Positions 40,921 to 50,939 of a stretch of DNA of 56,998 nucleotides are shown here, piece after piece. Numbering within the stretch: position 1 is the first letter of the stretch; every line of letters begins with the position of its first letter. The stretch is from Mollicutes bacterium (GTDB lineage: Bacteria; Bacillota_I; Bacilli_A; Izemoplasmatales; Izemoplasmataceae). A program made the translations under genes and the position numbers. The notes under the pieces are model-generated. The model made no database searches and was not told the DNA's origin. It worked only from the letters and a program-made list of their open reading frames with translations. Location: NCBI GenBank assembly GCA_003551005.1, contig PULR01000056.1, forward strand, positions 1-56,998. Reading direction: 5' to 3'.

Positions 40921-42315
40921 TCAACCCGCCTTTCGATAAAGGGTATCCTGAACATCGCCCCGGCGGCCTTCCACGATGCCGATGGCGTCGCCTCTGGTGA
41001 TCGGCTTCGGTCTCCCGGTATACGCATGCGCGCTTTGCATCAGCGTCTCGATATCCACCACGGGGAGCCCGGCGGCTTTCAGACGCCCGGCGAGCTTGTC
41101 GTTGGCGGGATGGACGGCGATGCCGCGCTCACTCACCAGACAATCGATGTGTTCACCCGAGGTGGTCTTCGTGAAGAGGCGCTCTTGAATCAAAGGCGTG
41201 CGGCCGCGGAAGAGCGGCGCGACGATGATGGCGAGCTTACTGTCTTCAGCGGTGTCCGAATGACCCCCGCTGCCGCCGATCAGATTGCCGTAGGAATCGG
41301 TGGTCACGTTGACGTTGAACCCGGTATCGACTTCACTGGCGCCGAGGATGACGATATCAAGATCCTTGATTACCCGCGAAGCGTTCGTGGGATCGGCATA
41401 ATCCCCGGCGCTGATGGGGATGTGCCCGGTGTTGCGCTGAAGACTGCCGATTGCTTCCTCATCGAAGCACTGGACATCGTAGAGTTTCTCCACGAGATTT
41501 CTCTCGAGGGCCTTTACATGCGGTGCGGCGATGCCGCCCGAGAAGAAGGAGGCCTGCGTCCCCGTCGCGGCGAGCATGTCGTTGAACTGCTCGGTAATCG
41601 CTAGGCTGATACCTCCGGCACCGCTTTGAAAGGAAACGCCGTTGCGCAACAGACCGCTGTGGCGGATGACCTCGGTGGCCATGCGGGCGATCTTCAATCC
41701 CAGCGGATCGCGGGTCACTTCGAGCGTGCCGCTGACGATGCCGCCCGGATCGCCGATTGAGGGAAGCCTGAGTACGTGATCGGTGTGCGAAGCGGACAAC
41801 TGGCCGGGCACGGGGAAATCTTCGAGGCTGTCGGTGATCAGTACGGAGCGCTTCGCGCAAGCATGATCCTCGACGGCGTATCCGAGACTGCCGCAGGCGG
41901 CCGCCCCGTAGATGCCTGAGCCGTTTCCCTCCGCATCGACGGCGGGGGTTGCGAGGAACGCCACATCGATGGCGTTCTCACCCTGCAGCACCGCCCGGGC
42001 GCGTCCCCCGTGCGTCTGCATCGTGAATTCGCCCCGCAGCTTCCCACGGGCGATCTCCTCGGCGACCGGGCCGTTTACATAATTGGTCGTGACGTGCCGG
42101 ATGGTCCCCTCCTCGATGCACGCCGCCGCTTCGGTGTGAACAGGAAAAAGGGCCGAGGCGTATAGATGCAGGTCCTTCAGACCACGCCTGCGCAAGGCGG
42201 CCAGCACCTCGTTCATCACGGCATCGCCGTTGCGCAGGTGATGGTGGAAGGACACGCGCATCCCGTCTCGAAGCTCGAGAACATCGAGCAATGCTTCTAG
42301 ATCGTCAGTCCGCAT
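40921..42315 (-). CDS. citF: Citrate/citramalate lyase alpha subunit (acyl transferase)
   Basis: CoA-transferase-like alpha subunit that moves the substrate onto the acyl carrier protein. It has 464 residues, slightly shorter than the common 500-520, with the N-terminus trimmed. It shows VSFHHHLRNGDAVMNEVLAA, SDYSG-like GNLIGGSGGHSDTAEDSKLA and VSERGIAVHPANDKLAGRL. The position next to methylaspartate ammonia-lyase implies (S)-citramalate as the true substrate. ATG 42315 behind AGGAGGCGG; another ATG lies one codon upstream. Confidence 0.94.
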   Translation of the reverse strand: MRTDDLEALLDVLELRDGMRVSFHHHLRNGDAVMNEVLAALRRRGLKDLHLYASALFPVHTEAAACIEEGTIRHVTTNYVNGPVAEEIARGKLRGEFTMQTHGGRARAVLQGENAIDVAFLATPAVDAEGNGSGIYGAAACGSLGYAVEDHACAKRSVLITDSLEDFPVPGQLSASHTDHVLRLPSIGDPGGIVSGTLEVTRDPLGLKIARMATEVIRHSGLLRNGVSFQSGAGGISLAITEQFNDMLAATGTQASFFSGGIAAPHVKALERNLVEKLYDVQCFDEEAIGSLQRNTGHIPISAGDYADPTNASRVIKDLDIVILGASEVDTGFNVNVTTDSYGNLIGGSGGHSDTAEDSKLAIIVAPLFRGRTPLIQERLFTKTTSGEHIDCLVSERGIAVHPANDKLAGRLKAAGLPVVDIETLMQSAHAYTGRPKPITRGDAIGIVEGRRGDVQDTLYRKAG

Positions 42316-43138
42316 CATCCGCCTCCTTTTTCAAGGCTTTGTAGCGCTTCGCACGTTCAAGCAGCTGCTTGGCCTCCTCAAGGACGGGACGGTCCACCAT
42401 CCTGCCATCAAGAGAGAAACGCACCTCGCCCGTCTGTTCATGACGCTCGACGATGCGTCTGGCCTCTCGGATCCGTTCCTGTGAAGGGGTGAAAGCCGCA
42501 TTCAAAGGGGGGACCTGGTTCGGATGAATCGCGCACTTGGCGTCGAAGCCGAGCGCGACCGATCGCTTCAGGTCTGTTTCGAACCCTGCATCATCAGACT
42601 CGGCATAAGGCGTGTCGATGGCCTCGATACCATACGCCCTCGCCGCCATGAGCAGACGGCTGCGTGCGTAGAGCAGCTCGATGCCGCTTTCTGTGGGGTG
42701 TGCATGAAGCGCCGCCCGCAGATCGACCCCGCCAAGAATCAGTCCATCAACCCCTGGATCCCTCGCGAGGTCCGAAAGCTCGAGAAACGCCGAAGGGGTT
42801 TCCACAAGCGCGAGCACGGACCATTCTTCTCCATCGAGCTGTTCACGCAGACTGGCCAGCGTCTGGATAGAGGCCTTCGGCAGCACCACTCCGTGGATGG
42901 GCAGCCCGTCGAGAATCGAAAAGTCGCGCGCCAGGGCATCGGCGTTGACACGGACATAAGCCGGCTGCGAGGGAGGATGCGTCTGGAGGAACGACCGGAC
43001 GAGCTGACGCGCCTCATCCTTCTCTTCAAGAGAGACGGCGTCCTCGAGATCGAAAATAAGCGCATCGGCCTCGAAGACCTCCGCATGCTGCAGCATCCGC
43101 GGGACGTTTCCGGGCACGAAGAGATAAGATCTAGCCAT
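42305..43138 (-). CDS. citE: Citrate/citramalate lyase beta subunit
   Basis: Cleaves the acyl-ACP-bound substrate to acetyl-ACP plus a 2-oxoacid (oxaloacetate from citrate or pyruvate from citramalate). A TIM barrel of the CitE family, 277 residues: SYLFVPGNVPRMLQHAEVFE, ALIFDLEDAVSLEEKDEARQ (metal-binding region), and GFDAKCAIHPNQVPPLNAAF. ATG 43138 is preceded by GGGAG and overlaps the citD end by eight bases; its own end overlaps citF. Confidence 0.94.
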   Translation of the reverse strand: MARSYLFVPGNVPRMLQHAEVFEADALIFDLEDAVSLEEKDEARQLVRSFLQTHPPSQPAYVRVNADALARDFSILDGLPIHGVVLPKASIQTLASLREQLDGEEWSVLALVETPSAFLELSDLARDPGVDGLILGGVDLRAALHAHPTESGIELLYARSRLLMAARAYGIEAIDTPYAESDDAGFETDLKRSVALGFDAKCAIHPNQVPPLNAAFTPSQERIREARRIVERHEQTGEVRFSLDGRMVDRPVLEEAKQLLERAKRYKALKKEADDAD

Positions 43139-43397
43139 CGTGCAGCTCCCGGTAACGTTCAATCGCCGCGATCAGCCTGGCACGGATGGTGAAATCCAGG
43201 GCGCCCTGGTCCTTGCAGCGGACGTAGACAGATTGAACCCCCATTTCCTCGAGGGTATCTGAGATGAGTGTGTGGATGTGTTCGTAGAAAGCCTCATGTA
43301 CATCAGTCTCGAGGTCGATCTCGAGCTGTTCCGATGGTTCGAGACGGATCAAGCAGTCGCTGGATTCCAGACTCCCGGTCGTCACGGTCTCCTTCAC
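43131..43397 (-). CDS. citD: Citrate/citramalate lyase acyl carrier protein (gamma subunit)
   Basis: An 88-residue carrier that bears the phosphoribosyl-dephospho-CoA arm. The TGSLESSDCLIRLEP segment corresponds to the family's modification site, with the acceptor Ser at about residue 13 or 14. GTG start, seven bases from an AGG, one base after the mal stop. Its place between mal and citE ties the lyase to the methylaspartate pathway. Confidence 0.93.
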   Translation of the reverse strand: MKETVTTGSLESSDCLIRLEPSEQLEIDLETDVHEAFYEHIHTLISDTLEEMGVQSVYVRCKDQGALDFTIRARLIAAIERYRELHDG

Positions 43398-43398
43398 G

Positions 43399-44646
43399 TT
43401 ATCGCCTGCCTTCTATGAGCGCCTTCGTGCGCCGCATGTGATTCTTGACAATCATGATGCCCTCGTCGGTGCCCATGCCCGGTTTCGCCAGACACTGCTT
43501 CGCGTTACAGGCCATCGCGATCGAGGTGGTGACCTCGGCGCTGATGTTGGTTTCGTTGCAAGAACCGCCGCTGTAGGCGCCGACCCCTTTCCGCAGGCAA
43601 TAGCGGAGCGCCTCGATGGTGTTGTTGACGCCACCGAGGTCGGGGGTCTTGACCTGCACCATGTGCGCGGCGTCCTCATCGGCGAAGTATTTGACATCCT
43701 CAAGGGTGTTGCACCATTCATCGGCGACGATCTCCACGTGGCAATCGGGGTCGTCGTCGATCCGCTGTTTGAGAGCCTTCAGGGCATCCTTCGTCTCTTC
43801 TCTCGAACCTTTGTCGATCGGACCCTCGATGCGGAGGGAGAAGGGCGAAGCGGTCTGCGAAAGCTCCCGGAGGTAACGGTGGACCTTGTCGATGTCGTCG
43901 TCGAAGATCATGCCCACGGTCCCGTAGACATCGATGTGAAGGACGGGATGATAATCGGGAGAAGGGCGTTTCGTCAAGATGCGTTGCCGGAGCCATTTCA
44001 CATACGACTCCAGCAATTCGCCCCGGGGACCGAGTTTGTTCTTGACGCTATTGATCAACGCATGCGGAAGCACGTCGACTTGCTTCATGATCATCTTGTC
44101 TACGTTGTTGTAGCGGTCATCACCGGTCTGGGCGAACAGGGGAATGAGGTGATATTCATCGCCCTTGATGTCGTATTCCCGGCGCACGACTTCGCTCATG
44201 GTGATTCCGTTCGCCTTCGCGGTGGCTTCGAGAAGCGCCTGGGTGATGCCATACCGCAGAGCGGTATGGATGGTTCTCCCTTCGACTGTGAACGAATCAA
44301 AATATTCCGCGTTCTCCCGGAACCGCCTGACATCGAGTCCAAGCAGTGCCGGGGTCAGGTGCCGCTCGAAGAACCGGGCGGCTTCCGCCGCGCTGAAAAG
44401 CGGGTCCCGTCCGGCCGCTCCGGAATACTGCACGGCGACGGCATCGCCATAGGCGATCATGTCGTTTTCAAGAATGAACATGATCGACAGTGTCTCGCCG
44501 GCCTGTCGGATGGCGTCGAACTTCTCTGTCACGGGCTTGCCGAGGTAGGTGAAATGATCCAGCTCCGCTCCTTGCTTGATTGCGGACTGATCGTCGTAGT
44601 AGAAACCGGTGTAGCCTTCGGAGAGAATGACGTTCTTGATTTTCAT
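43399..44646 (-). CDS. mal: Methylaspartate ammonia-lyase
   Basis: Eliminates ammonia from (2S,3S)-3-methylaspartate to give mesaconate. It has 415 residues of the enolase superfamily: [29 protein letters not shown] and [14 protein letters not shown] (metal ligands), [12 protein letters not shown], the catalytic Lys in [19 protein letters not shown], and [18 protein letters not shown]. It overlaps the glmE stop by ATGA, with AAAAGGAGC for initiation. Confidence 0.97.
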
Positions 44647-46130
44647 GGTGTTGGATGCTCCTTTTTATTCTGTGTCGCGATCGAAGCGCCGACCAGACGG
44701 CCCCGGGAGACGGCATAGATGTCGTCAATGGTCATCTGGAAATCCACTTGACGGCTTTCCTGGTCCGCCCGGTTCTCAAGCGCGTCTCGATGATAGGTCT
44801 TGATTTCGTCATTGAAAGGCAGATTGCCGAATTCGAGGATGCGGATGTTCCCCTTGGCGTCCCGTGCCGGCAGAACCTTGCCGGCGTTGATCTGGCTCGG
44901 CGCGAAGGGGACATCGAGAACGCCGGCCTTGAACGCCTTGACAGTCCCCTCGGCAAGGTCGCCCTTGCCGATATTCAAGGTCGCATAAAGCAGGGCGTTG
45001 ACTTCCTGCTTGATCAGGTTCTTCTCCGCCTCGAGAGCGTTCGAGGGCGGCTGGCGCTGTTCTCTGAGCAGCCCCGTCACCATCTTCGAGGCCCTGAGTC
45101 CTTCGGCATTCGCTTCTTTGGTGGGGATGCCCTCCGATTCATGGGGCGACTTGGTGATCATCTTCGTCGCTCCTCCAAGGGACGCGACGGCTGAGGCGAG
45201 AGAAATAATCCCCATCGCCTTGGATTCATCCTTGGGGAAACCGCCCATCCACTGATGGAAAACCGTTGTCACGTGAACGTCTTCGTATCCGAAGAGCTTA
45301 AGGTAGTAGGTGGTCAAAGATTCGAGGGTTTCGAGGGCGGCGACGTCCTGCACGATGTTGCCGCACTGCCCATAGCCGACAGTGATGCTCTTGACACCCT
45401 GTTCGGCCGCCAGCAAGGCTTCAATGATGGCCACCGTATGCGTGATGCTCGGCGGCACGAGCGTTCCCGTCAGAGGTCCGAAGGGTTCGCGATTGATGAT
45501 GACGCCGGCCTCCGCGTATAGACCCACCAGACGGTCGATGTATTGCCAGTAGCGGAGGGTGTCCTCCAAAGAGATGCTTTTGGCGTAGGGGATGTTGTAG
45601 GAAATCCCGCCGCCCTCGTTCGAGGTCCAGCCGCCGGCGTGGATGATCTCCGAAAGCAGCCTGGCGTCCGGGGTGCCGTGCCTGGCCTGAACTGGCCGGC
45701 TGACGGCCTGCAAGACCTCATAACAGGCTTCCGCTCCGTGATTGACGGCGGGAAAACCGTTGAGCAGCGACCGCTTCTGCTTCTTCGATTGCTTGATTGC
45801 ATCGGCGGCGAGCGAATAACGATTCTGCCGTGTATAGGAATCGATTGTCGAAGGCAGAAGGTCGGCCTCGCCATGGTCGGCAAGAAACCGAAGCAGCTCG
45901 ATGTGCTGATCAATCAGCGCGACGCCGGCGCGAGGCTGCGTCAGCGTCACGCCTTCTTCCTTCGCCCGCTTCAGAACACTGGCGAAATCCTTCTCTTCAG
46001 GAATCGATTTCAAGCGTTCAATGGCGTTTTCAATCTTGAGTGCCTTTGCAGAGCCGGTTTCCCACTGCGCGAGCACTTTTTCGCGTGTCTTGTGGAACTT
46101 TTCTTCGGAAAGCTTCTTGTTCTTGATCAT
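44643..46130 (-). CDS. glmE: Glutamate mutase epsilon (E) subunit
   Basis: Catalytic barrel subunit of adenosylcobalamin-dependent glutamate mutase, converting L-glutamate to 3-methylaspartate. It has 495 residues (family about 485): [60 protein letters not shown] and [20 protein letters not shown] are diagnostic. RBS TAGGAGATTCGAC before the ATG. It is the partner of GlmS; reactivation is by GlmL. Confidence 0.97.
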
Positions 46131-46140
46131 GTCGAATCTC

Positions 46141-47535
46141 CTATACCAAGTGACGTTTCATCAACTTGAGGGCGAGGCGGGGGTGTTTCTGCGCCAGCAG
46201 CCCCATCGCGTGCATGATGTATTGCTCATCGATCAGGAAGTCGCAGTCGGTCGGGCGCAGCTCGAGTTTCTTCGAACTTTTATGTTCAACTTCGTGAAGG
46301 ATTCCTTTGGGATCTTCCGCGTTGATCAGGATTCCTCCGGTCCCGATGACATATTGAATGTCGGTGAGGTCCTTGCCGGTCTGGTAATACATATTGCCAA
46401 GCGGCGTGTAGACGACCTCGACTTGTCCCACGTGGCGGCTCATCGAATAATCCGTGCAGATTCGGGCGAGTGCGTGGTCGAATTCACGCTCCTCATCAGT
46501 ATCCGGCAGATAACCGATCTCCTCGTGCCGCTTCTTCACGGATTTCTCGATGTAGTCCTCATCGGCCTCCTGTTCGCCATTCTCGTAATACTGACGGAAC
46601 TCATATGGCGAAACGAGACTAAGCAGGGCGTTGGCACTGTGACGGACGCCGAGGTCTCCTTCGACCGTGCGTTTCGCAAATGGTTCCTGAAGCCCCTTGA
46701 GGATAACTTCGGCCCGCTTGGGGACCCCTTCGCCGATAGTGTGGACATCCGTAGTCGCTCCGCCGATGTCGAGCACGACGAGGTCTCCGTATCCTTCCAT
46801 CTCCTCATATCCCTTGGAAAGCAGTTCGGCGGCTTGGAGGACCGCCTCCGGCGTGGGCATGATAAATTCGCCGATCTTCTCTTCGGCCTGCTTGATGCCC
46901 TTGCCTTCGATAATCTTGGTGATGAAAATCTGACGGATGACATCCTTCGCCGGTTCAACGTGGAGCTTTTGCAGTTTCGGCATCACATTGTCGACAATGT
47001 AATGCTCGATATCGGTCTTTTGAAAAATCTGTGCCACTTCATCGGCGGCGTCCTTGTTACCCGCAACAATGATCGGCACGTCGAGGCCGGCTTCGGCGAG
47101 CTGCTTCGCATTGTGCAGGATACATTCCTTGTTGCCGCCGTCCGTGCCTCCCGCTAGGAGGATGATGTCGATGTCCGCTTGCTTGAGCGTCTTGATTTCT
47201 TTCTTGCCGAGATGATGGCTGAAGACATGCTCCACGAGCGCACCAGCTCCGAGACATGCCCGCTTGGCCGCTTCGGCGGTCAATTCCTCGACCAGTCCGA
47301 TCGCCGCCATCTTCAAACCGCCGGCTGCCGAGGAGCAGGCGGAGACGGCATCGATCTCACCCATCTCCGGATGGGCTTTACGGAGTTTCTCCAAAGCGAC
47401 CTGGAACCCTTCGTTCACGTCGGTGCGGATTGTCGTCATCGCCCGGGAAGTCCCGATTAGTTTCTCCGCTTCGAGATCGACAGCCGTCAGCTTCGTATAG
47501 GTGGATCCGAAATCGACCAGCAATTGGACGCTCAC
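46141..47535 (-). CDS. glmL: Glutamate mutase-associated protein L (MutL/GlmL, reactivase-like)
   Basis: An actin/Hsp70-fold ATPase encoded beside glutamate mutases, thought to help reactivate the cobalamin enzyme. It has 464 residues: [20 protein letters not shown] (phosphate 1 motif), [40 protein letters not shown], and [18 protein letters not shown] (phosphate 2). GTG start overlapping the glmS stop. Confidence 0.95.
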
Positions 47536-47936
47536 TTGGACAGATCCCCCTTCAAATCTTCCGCTGCCTGTTCGATATCGGCACCCGGAGGATAGACACG
47601 GTCGAACCCCATTTTCTTGAAACGCTGTTCCACTTCCTTGAAATCCTGCTTACCGACGACGATGTTCCCACCGACATAGAGCTTGACGTGCGACAGGCCG
47701 GCCTCGACACAGTTCTCCTTGAAATACTTGCAATCCATTTCGCCGTGGCCGTAAAGAGAGGACACCAGAATGGCCTCTGCATCCGTCTCGATGGCCGCGT
47801 TGATAAAGTCCTCCTGGGAACTGAGGACGCCGATGTTGACGACGTCGAAACCTTTCTCCGTCAAAACGTGTTCAATGATTTTGTTACCGACGGCATGGAC
47901 GTCGGCTCCGATGACGCCAATGACTACCGTGTGCAT
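47532..47936 (-). CDS. glmS: Glutamate mutase sigma (S) subunit, cobalamin-binding
   Basis: A small cobalamin-binding Rossmann protein of 134 residues. The B12 motif D-x-H-x-x-G is present as GADVHAVGN (Asp12, His14, Gly17), and [14 protein letters not shown] matches the lower axial region. The gene overlaps the upstream 58-aa ORF by 13 bases. Not related to the glucosamine-6-phosphate synthase that shares the name glmS. Confidence 0.96.
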
Positions 47937-48269: not shown

Positions 48270-48755
48270 TCAGCCGAAATAAGTCTTTTCCTCGAAACCG
48301 ATGCGACCGGCGATCAGCCGCATTGGAAACGCGCGGATGAAATGATTGTACTGCAGGATCTTCGAGTTATACTTCAACCGAAGGGTCTGCAAGGTCTCGA
48401 AGCGACGCTTGAGCTCCGGCGCCGCCTCCTCATCGCTTTCCTCAAGCGAGACATAGAGAGTCTTCAAGGCCTTGAAGACAGCCTGACGCTCCTCTAGGGA
48501 AAGCGTGCGGAAACTGCTTTTCGTGACTCGGTCGATGCGGTTGAGATAGTCGTAATCGTCGTAGTGACTGAAAAGCGACGCATTCTTAGCATACGCGGAA
48601 GCGGTCTCGAATAGCGCCTTGTGAAAATTCAGCTCGAGGCGGGCCACCTCGGACCACAGCTTCAGCATCCGGTTGCGTCTGTTCAAAAGCAACACCAGAC
48701 CGGCGATGAGAAGCAGCACGATAACCAGTATGTCTATCCACGGTTCATACAGCAC
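48270..48755 (-). CDS. Small LemA-like membrane protein
   Basis: 161 residues: an N-terminal helix (ILVIVLLLIAGLVLLL), a helical domain, and a C-terminus LKYNSKILQYNHFIRAFPMR-LIAGRIGFEEKTYFG that carries the LemA pattern (YN..I..YN..I..FP..L.A...GF). It is a little shorter than typical LemA (about 185). GTG start eight bases behind AGGAGG, 12 bases after the HD-GYP-like stop. The function of LemA proteins is unclear; co-transcription with a membrane signalling-like protein is the main clue. Confidence 0.78.
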   Translation of the reverse strand: MLYEPWIDILVIVLLLIAGLVLLLNRRNRMLKLWSEVARLELNFHKALFETASAYAKNASLFSHYDDYDYLNRIDRVTKSSFRTLSLEERQAVFKALKTLYVSLEESDEEAAPELKRRFETLQTLRLKYNSKILQYNHFIRAFPMRLIAGRIGFEEKTYFG

Positions 48756-48767
48756 AACGGAACCTCC

Positions 48768-50318
48768 TCATGCCAGCTTCTGCTGCTGTCGTTGATAATA
48801 GTTTTCGAATTCCCGGTTATATTTGATGAAGCGATCCAGAATGTAGGGTTCGAAATAGTCCTTGAACTCCAGCTCGAGCAGCTCCACGGCCCGTTTGTGA
48901 GTGAGGGCGGTCTTGTAGTTGCGGGGCTGCCGGAGAATCTCGTAAATCTCCGCAAGCAGTATGATCTGGCCCTCCTGCGTCCGCTGAATCCGTTTCATGC
49001 GCTCCGTGAAGGCCTTGTCCGCCGTCTTCTCGAAATGAGCGCGGACAATGTCCTCGCTTTTTTGATTGAGCTGCAGGCGCTTGATGATGACGCTGCCGAG
49101 GATGGTCTTGTCGCGGATGACCTGGTAGTCCTTTTCATCAAGGACTTCCTTATCCTCGTATTCGACAATCGAGAGGTCGTCGATGCGGTCGATGTGAATC
49201 TTCGAATAATCGTAAATCTCGCTGCAGACGCTCGGACTGAGGCCGAGCACGTTTCCTAGGCGGCTCGCCAGCTCGGCGACCCGCTTGGCAGCGTGACGTC
49301 CCTCCGCATGCGAGCGCGGTCCGAAAACGCCGATGACATCGAAGACATCACCGACAACAGCCTTGAAGTCCGATTCCATGTCGCGACGCTTGAGCAGCTC
49401 CTCCTTGCGCTTGTTGTTCATCATCTCACCGATCGCGACCGAGGAATACAGCGCAATGTGGAAGATGACAAGCACGAGGGTCCGTAGAAGGATGTCGATG
49501 GTGACAGAGGGATTCTCGATAATCAGATAGTCGAAAAGCGTCTGGATGGAGTCTGCATAATTGTATAGCGGGTACATGATGGTGACGTGGACGATCGTCA
49601 TCAGCACCAGGACCCATTTGAACAGAATTCTCAGCAGCGTCGCGTTTTGATAGAGCGCGATGACGATGAGGGCGAAGTAGACCAGTCCGTATCCCGCAAG
49701 CGTGATCGACAGCCCGCCTTCGGTCCCAGGGGCCACGCCGACACGCAGCTTGATGTAGACACCAATCGAGGCCAGCAGGATATAGACGCTGGCGATGTAC
49801 ATCGCCATCTGCTGCTTGAGGAGGGTCCGGGGCCGTTCGCGGATAATCCGTTTCAAGGTGGTGTTGATGGCGAACATCAACACCCCGAACCCGAAGATGA
49901 CGATGTAGTTGGGATCCTGTGAACCCAGAAGGGTGAAGATCAGGAAAACGGCGTTGGTCACGATGAGGATGTTCTTGATGACGCGGTTGCGTCGATACAG
50001 GACGCTTTTCTCATCTAGGATGTCGACGCCTGACTCGAAGTGGAACTTGTCCCGGGCGCGCTTCACTATCCGTTTATAGATGATGCGCAGGCGTTTTTTG
50101 AGGATTGAAGGCTTGCTTCGCTTCTTTGGCTTGTCCGTGCTGGAGTAGCTCTTGATCCGTTCAACGACACTCTTGAAAAAGAGGGCGATCCTATCGATCC
50201 GGGTCGTCCGGTTCGGGTCCTCCTCCTTTTTCAGCGTCTCGACATATTCCTTCAGTTCGTCGGGGTCGCTATCAGCCTTCTTGAAGAAATCTTCGAGATC
50301 CCGTTCCTTCTTGGCCAT
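48768..50318 (-). CDS. Membrane-anchored degenerate HD-GYP domain protein
   Basis: 516 residues. A basic cytoplasmic N-terminus (1-110), about six membrane helices (115-295), then a cytoplasmic domain (about 320-500) with the order of an HD-GYP phosphodiesterase: AEGRHAAKRVAELASRLGNV, IYDYSKIHID where LHDIGKI is usual (HD changed to YD), AHFEKTADKAF where HHERxDGxGYP is usual (first His and GYP lost), LLAEIYEILRQPRNYKTALT for IADxYDALTxxRxYrxAlx, and YFEPYILDRFI. Several metal ligands are therefore missing. It probably cannot hydrolyse cyclic-di-GMP and may act as a sensor or scaffold. ATG 50318 after CTAGGAAGTGATCGC, 11 bases beyond pgpA. Confidence 0.8.
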   Translation of the reverse strand: MAKKERDLEDFFKKADSDPDELKEYVETLKKEEDPNRTTRIDRIALFFKSVVERIKSYSSTDKPKKRSKPSILKKRLRIIYKRIVKRARDKFHFESGVDILDEKSVLYRRNRVIKNILIVTNAVFLIFTLLGSQDPNYIVIFGFGVLMFAINTTLKRIIRERPRTLLKQQMAMYIASVYILLASIGVYIKLRVGVAPGTEGGLSITLAGYGLVYFALIVIALYQNATLLRILFKWVLVLMTIVHVTIMYPLYNYADSIQTLFDYLIIENPSVTIDILLRTLVLVIFHIALYSSVAIGEMMNNKRKEELLKRRDMESDFKAVVGDVFDVIGVFGPRSHAEGRHAAKRVAELASRLGNVLGLSPSVCSEIYDYSKIHIDRIDDLSIVEYEDKEVLDEKDYQVIRDKTILGSVIIKRLQLNQKSEDIVRAHFEKTADKAFTERMKRIQRTQEGQIILLAEIYEILRQPRNYKTALTHKRAVELLELEFKDYFEPYILDRFIKYNREFENYYQRQQQKLA

Positions 50319-50329
50319 GCGATCACTTC

Positions 50330-50893
50330 CTAGAGGTCGAAATCGAGCTGGATCTCCTTATAGCGCGGGTCCTTGCGAGCCTCTTTTTCATTTGCGATCT
50401 GCGCTACACGGGTCGATGAGGCGGCGGCGATGGCGCCGACGATGTCATCGAGAAACGTGTGGCAGACAGTCTCGTCTTCTTTTCCCTGGGTGTTCAGCTT
50501 CTCGATAATGAGCGGCTTGTTCACATCAATGTCTCCGAAATTGGTCTTGCCGATGGTTCCGAACAGTCCGGCCAGTTCAAGCCCGAACAGTTCGTCGATA
50601 CCGAACAGGCCGAGGTCATTGTGCAAAATTTCCCTCAATGGTTCGCGAATCCGATTCTCCTCGGTCAGCCGGTCAATCTCGGCGCCGAGCTGGAGAATGT
50701 GGAAGGTGTCACGCAGCGAGAGAATCTTCTCGACGGACTCCACACAATCCTGCCTGGATACGTCTCCGGCCCATTTGGATTGCTGCTGATAGGCGATCTC
50801 GGCGATGTCGTCGACGGACACCCCGCGCTCCTCCAGGGTCTCGACGTTCATTCGGAGCATTTCATTCCGGCTGAACAGGGAACGTTTGGACAT
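50330..50893 (-). CDS. pgpA: Phosphatidylglycerophosphatase A, YutG type
   Basis: A soluble-looking 187-residue PgpA-family protein like Bacillus YutG. Evidence: NVETLEERGVSVDDIAEIAY, IREPLREILHNDLGLFGIDE, ELAGLFGTIGKTNFGDIDVN, and the strongly conserved CHTFLDDIVGAIAAASSTRV. It would dephosphorylate phosphatidylglycerol phosphate during lipid synthesis. ATG 50893 is preceded by GAAGGAGACATTCAC. First gene of a three-gene unit. Confidence 0.92.
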   Translation of the reverse strand: MSKRSLFSRNEMLRMNVETLEERGVSVDDIAEIAYQQQSKWAGDVSRQDCVESVEKILSLRDTFHILQLGAEIDRLTEENRIREPLREILHNDLGLFGIDELFGLELAGLFGTIGKTNFGDIDVNKPLIIEKLNTQGKEDETVCHTFLDDIVGAIAAASSTRVAQIANEKEARKDPRYKEIQLDFDL

Positions 50894-50917
50894 GTGAATG
50901 TCTCCTTCTTCTTGGGT

Positions 50918-50939
50918 TGGGTTCGTTTTCAACATTATA
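50918..50939 (-). promoter_or_regulatory. Possible pgpA promoter with a weak cre-like box
   Basis: TATAAT on the minus strand (50939-50934) without a convincing -35. Immediately downstream TGAAAACGAACCCA (50931-50918) fits the loose cre pattern TGNAANCGNWNNCA. The loose pattern is expected by chance a few times in a window this size, so the box is weak evidence. Confidence 0.35.

Follow-up and report, generated by a model that had tools for sequence, protein, structure and literature searches.

A membrane protein with a degenerate HD-GYP domain conserved across several orders of Bacilli

HD* is a membrane protein whose cytosolic domain descends from the HD-GYP phosphodiesterases that break down cyclic-di-GMP (c-di-GMP), and that domain has lost catalytic residues throughout the family. 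HD* is probably a pseudoenzyme that acts at the membrane as a receptor or scaffold, and it may have a link to phospholipid synthesis. It is described here from a stretch of 56,998 nucleotides (the window), contig C15 in a genome of 1.35 Mb; the nearest relatives of this genome are Ca. Izimaplasma and Mollicutes metagenome-assembled genomes (MAGs).

The protein begins with a variable soluble stretch of about 90 residues, which is followed by six hydrophobic helices and then by the C-terminal domain. A six-helix membrane part in front of an HD-GYP domain had been proposed in the first-pass annotation, and hydropathy agrees, with peaks at residues ~113-131, 137-155, 171-189, 203-221, 231-249, and 272-290. 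The full-length model has a mean pLDDT of 52 and is usable for the helix count only. Positive charges are concentrated in the loops that should face the cytosol, and from this both termini are predicted to be cytosolic. The six-helix part has no significant match in Pfam or NCBIfam. The features are collected in Table 1.

Table 1. Coordinates in the window of HD*, its parts, and two adjoining genes
Feature	Position	Strand	Basis
HD*, pseudo-HD-GYP membrane protein, 516 aa	48768..50318	minus	ORF and orthologues
Six-helix membrane domain, residues 112-299	49422..49985	minus	Hydropathy peaks; helices in low-confidence model
Juxtamembrane helix, residues 300-330, with family-invariant R304, E307, R311, F326	49329..49421	minus	Alignments
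Degenerate HD-GYP-derived domain, residues 338-510	48789..49307	minus	Profile and fold matches
H375-I376, HD motif position, D lost	49191..49196	minus	Alignment, profile-profile
K404, replaces metal ligand His (PmGH H250)	49107..49109	minus	Alignment
H428-F429, replaces HH pair (PmGH H276/H277)	49032..49037	minus	Alignment
F437, replaces GYP tyrosine	49008..49010	minus	Alignment
E457, replaces metal ligand Asp (PmGH D305)	48948..48950	minus	Alignment
PgpA-family phosphatase gene, 11 bp upstream of HD*	50330..50935	minus	Pfam PgpA, 46.7 bits
LemA-like one-helix protein, judged an incidental neighbour	48270..48755	minus	Pfam LemA, 29.1 bits, 43 C-terminal residues only; rate and synteny

Descent of the cytosolic domain and loss of its ligands

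The C-terminal domain of HD* is an HD-GYP domain by descent. In NCBIfam it matches the NosR-family HD-GYP phosphodiesterase at 5.6e-9, and against Pfam HD_5 it reaches 26.4 bits, just under the gathering score of 27.2 (28.9 bits in the genome scan). When a family profile of 31 orthologues (alignment A2) was compared with the PDB, the best relative was PmGH (E 1.2e-10), over the entire domain. Set against 17 intact HD-GYP domains taken from this and related genomes, the profile reached a probability of 99.4% in hhalign (E 5.5e-22) over residues 338-510. A model of residues 303-516 has a mean pLDDT of 61, so that its fold match is usable and its residue geometry is not; the first eight Foldseek matches of this model are all HD-GYP structures. 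With VIA-align, the HD-GYP chains 9rbz, 4mcw, 9rc0, and 4r8z match it at Z 8.3-9.2 compared to 7.8 for PgpH, values that are weak if taken alone since the model is helical but that settle the fold in combination with the sequence profiles. The HD-GYP fold pattern first noticed in the letters alone is thus borne out by profile searches, and structure prediction likewise finds an HD-type fold with HD-GYP structures as its top matches.

In PmGH, three irons are held by eight side chains, and activity is all but lost when H221, D222, H250, H276, or H277 is replaced by alanine (PMC4159591). The equivalents of these five residues in HD* are H375, I376, K404, H428, and F429. The protein in the window keeps only the H221 and H276 equivalents, with E457 standing for D305, and it has AHFEKTADKAF where HHExxDGxGYP is expected. 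Four positions, namely the HD Asp (D222), the a8 His (H250), the second His of HHE (H277), and the GYP Tyr (Y285), were scored across the family. The expected residues are found at these positions in 0 of 70 HD* orthologues, compared to 19 of 19 intact HD-GYP paralogues with all four.

Broken motifs had also been described in the first-pass annotation, in part correctly. The HD motif is broken, but only in its Asp, since the His (H375) is kept; the motif had been read as "YD," which cannot stand because Y369-D370 lies six residues upstream and out of register, and the aligned position is H375-I376 in "KIHID." Similarly, the reading of HHE as AHFE holds for the second His, which is gone (F429), but one His of the pair (H428) is kept. 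The absence of GYP is confirmed by F437 at the Tyr position and by the lack of this Tyr in all 70 orthologues.

The ligands that remain differ between groups. The equivalents of H189, H221, H276, and D305 are kept in the Acholeplasma-like sequences L076, L078, L081, and L082, whereas nearly all ligand positions are lost in HD* of family group f10. One initial loss, shared by all, was thus followed by more erosion that took differing directions. HD* is predicted to be unable to hydrolyse c-di-GMP, and it probably has some other job than c-di-GMP breakdown. The sequences give strong support to the original idea of a membrane protein with a dead HD-GYP domain as its base, and what they show is a conserved family, not an isolated case.

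Distribution and constraint

Within the order Ca. Izemoplasmatales, a match to HD* is present in 88 of 90 genomes and in all 33 good genomes, although in a few incomplete genomes among the 88 the best match is merely a distant HD-GYP protein. In a sample of the class, 112 of 395 genomes match at E<=1e-10. Full-length profile matches (E<1e-110) occur in this sample only in family groups f1-f3, f10, f12, f16, and f22, and no further match appears until 1e-19, the level at which ordinary HD-GYP proteins set in. Group f5 is a further carrier. We take f12 to be Acholeplasmataceae and f10 to be Haloplasmatales/Turicibacter, which is a guess. Outside its own order, HD* is found in five other family groups of the class, and it is degenerate in 70 of the 70 sequences checked. 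A search of viral contigs for more HD* sequences found none. In a phylogenetic tree, 31 members of the family split from 19 HD-GYP domains with a support of 100/100; this single clade, together with the shared losses, argues that catalysis was lost once and early. HD* has one origin, followed by inheritance that roughly follows the family groups.

In the genus g9, whose genomes are small, HD* seems to be decaying. The frame is broken in G056 by a frameshift near residue ~420 (L137, G056:C13:61-1569), and G055 and G057 have neither an HD* match nor a linked pgpA. These three MAGs are 81-89% complete and the two genes are adjacent, so their joint absence is weak evidence, and MAG error or incompleteness may be part of the cause. 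Being missing or broken in this genus, HD* is not strictly essential.

Elsewhere, the gene is well preserved. Between the window and L003, the identity of HD* is 82%, compared to 89% for PgpA, 88% for GlmS, 82% for GlmL, 76% for MutE, 56% for both PriA and LemA, 52% for HAD, and 50% for Fmt. HD* thus evolves at the pace of GlmL and far more slowly than its neighbours PriA and Fmt. The best-conserved stretches are the juxtamembrane helix at residues 300-330 (mean conservation 0.93, alignment A1) and residues 401-432. Residues that are invariant in the family include R304, E307, R311, F326, R414, Y459, R463, and F497 (A2), none of which is an HD-GYP ligand. Among Izemoplasmataceae, pN/pS is about 0.16-0.23; dS is saturated, and dN/dS is therefore not claimed. 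A recent pseudogene is ruled out by this ratio, by the intact frame in nearly all genomes, and by key losses that are common to all families. The slow evolution and the conserved stretches argue that HD* is no useless remnant, and the constraint on it equals that on working enzymes.

A role in binding and its alternatives

The preferred reading is that of a membrane receptor or scaffold. The metal centre and the GYP lid of an HD-GYP enzyme were lost in a single event, in a forebear common to several orders of Bacilli, and HD* would work by binding. Sensing or anchoring is the probable task of the membrane part, while the invariant juxtamembrane helix would pass the state on and the pseudo-catalytic domain may dock partner proteins or a small ligand.

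Dead relatives of c-di-GMP enzymes are usually viewed as receptors within c-di-GMP networks, and degenerate EAL and GGDEF proteins can serve as c-di-GMP receptors. By analogy, HD* could still bind c-di-GMP in its pocket without metal and signal, which we consider quite improbable. Most carriers do have rich c-di-GMP systems (15 GGDEF and five EAL matches in the window genome), and R466 and K469, which correspond to the guanine contacts R314 and K317 of PmGH, are kept in many orthologues. However, most other pocket positions vary, and the R314 position itself is K, Q, or T in many sequences. HD* is also kept in G058 (96% complete), G089 (97%), and G229 (99%), from three family groups, which have no EAL match and no HD-GYP match besides HD*. 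Each of them has a single GGDEF-like protein with a degenerate signature (RLQGILF or RISGxxF for RxGGDEF). Since no catalytic-looking c-di-GMP enzyme is present in these three genomes, the function retained there cannot depend on c-di-GMP. As for c-di-AMP, its cyclase (DAC) was found in 14 of 15 genomes tested; in G089, a carrier of HD*, it was not detected.

A second degenerate c-di-GMP-type membrane protein was seen at G000:C51:26992-28128 (L134:4990-6138, minus strand), L136:6762-7889, and L135:5005-6618. It is made of membrane helices, a PAS-like part, and a GGDEF domain without the signature. It is present in 103 of 395 genomes of the class, and its gene adjoins the c-di-AMP cyclase gene or lies no more than about 3 kb from it in 13 of the 14 genomes with a DAC match. 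A DHH domain seems not to fit into an ORF of this length, which sets the protein apart from an ordinary GdpP; regulation of CdaA is a possible role. Common to Acholeplasma-like genomes is a protein of ~1000 residues with weak GGDEF and/or EAL matches (L109 in G294:C65, G098:C62:13506-14147, and G241:C1:1333747-1334385), and it may be degenerate as well.

Less probable again is a new active site, in which H375, H428, D/E457, H474, R414, E422, and R463 would bind one metal or another substrate and carry out new chemistry. Several polar residues are indeed invariant in the family, and the four Acholeplasma-like sequences keep the ligand equivalents named above. Against this, the bridging HD Asp is absent in all sequences, the retained set varies by family down to the near-complete loss in f10, and no His/Asp set is conserved throughout.

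Several known systems come close to HD*. With the HD-GYP phosphodiesterases (PmGH, 4mcw; PA4781, 4r8z; the RpfG class), HD* shares the HD five-helix core and the C-terminal helices, as judged from profile and fold matches, and a largely kept "RxYK" region, but it lacks the HD Asp, the a8 His, the second His of HHE, and GYP, and it adds a six-helix membrane part of no known family. The degenerate HD output domains termed HDOD have lost catalysis and play a regulatory role, usually in a soluble signalling context. HD* is likewise HD-derived with catalysis lost, but it is a membrane protein; the Pfam scans reported no HDOD match, an absence that is weak evidence. The PgpH-type 7TM-HD c-di-AMP phosphodiesterases resemble HD* in joining membrane helices to a cytosolic HD domain, although the fold match is weaker (Z 7.8), the sequence is nearer to HD-GYP, and HD* lacks both their large extracellular domain and their catalytic residues. 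No 7TMR-HDED or 7TM match was found in Pfam at E<=1, and there is no long extracellular segment between the helices. Bd1817 of Bdellovibrio is an unconventional, inactive HD-GYP protein that has no phosphodiesterase activity and no GYP Tyr (PMC4159591). Bd1817, however, keeps a binuclear iron centre, whereas the ligand set of HD* is gone and its family is core in several orders.

No description of HD* was found in the literature searched. Inactive HD-GYP proteins such as Bd1817 and degenerate HD output domains are already known; HD* is unusual in that an inactive form belongs to the core genes of several orders, evolves slowly, and does not depend on c-di-GMP. HD* outlives the c-di-GMP system, and the role of a lone pseudo-phosphodiesterase can therefore be tested in culturable Acholeplasma-like or Izemoplasma strains.

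Gene neighbourhood

The ancestral gene order is priA-fmt-pgpA-HD*-metK. The pgpA gene lies 2-41 bp upstream of HD* in 44 of 45 informative loci of f1, f2, f3, f5, f12, and f16, and in f5 it still adjoins HD* though fmt is no longer adjacent. Given linkage this tight in six family groups, the process most likely to involve HD* is membrane phospholipid synthesis, and a link to it via pgpA is proposed with low confidence. The f22 genomes tested keep HD* and have no PgpA match, f10 keeps HD* and has only distant PgpA paralogues with the linked orthologue absent, and G091 has PgpA without HD*; the two are thus not an obligate dedicated pair. It is doubtful, though worth stating, that a dedicated receptor made from a dead c-di-GMP phosphodiesterase became independent of c-di-GMP and, in Bacilli with thin walls or none, regulates phospholipid synthesis through PgpA or whatever replaces it.

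The genome has two PgpA-family genes, since another paralogue with about 40% identity is encoded a few genes away from the c-di-AMP cyclase locus (L134:1770-2279, minus strand; G000:C51:23781-24224).

Least probable of all is that HD* is coupled, as a scaffold or regulator, to MetK or to general housekeeping, with the pgpA link as inherited gene order only: metK is downstream of HD* in seven family groups, overlapping it or within 14 bp in f2 and deep f1 and in place even in f10, where all other neighbours differ, but a SAM riboswitch between the two genes in f16 and f10 loci indicates separate control there and weakens metK as an operon partner, and in f5 and the window's own clade metK has moved away and HD* was not lost.

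LemA was considered as a partner and rejected on synteny and on its fast rate. It touches HD* in 10 of 23 f1 loci, thus in just part of the window's own family, and in none of the other groups examined, and its identity is 29-56% where that of HD* is 56-83%. The pgpA/HD*/LemA trio arose when metK left. The three-gene module suggested in the first-pass annotation is therefore not supported in that form, with metK in that place elsewhere and no pgpA match in f22. A conserved gene set survives in part, in that pgpA is tightly linked and slowly evolving in six family groups, but LemA is incidental and the pgpA linkage is absent in f22 and f10.

Directly after the locus in the window's clade are genes resembling those of glutamate fermentation by the methylaspartate route (42305-47936, minus strand), and they include GlmS, GlmL, MutE, a methylaspartate ammonia-lyase-like gene, and a citrate-lyase-like gene.
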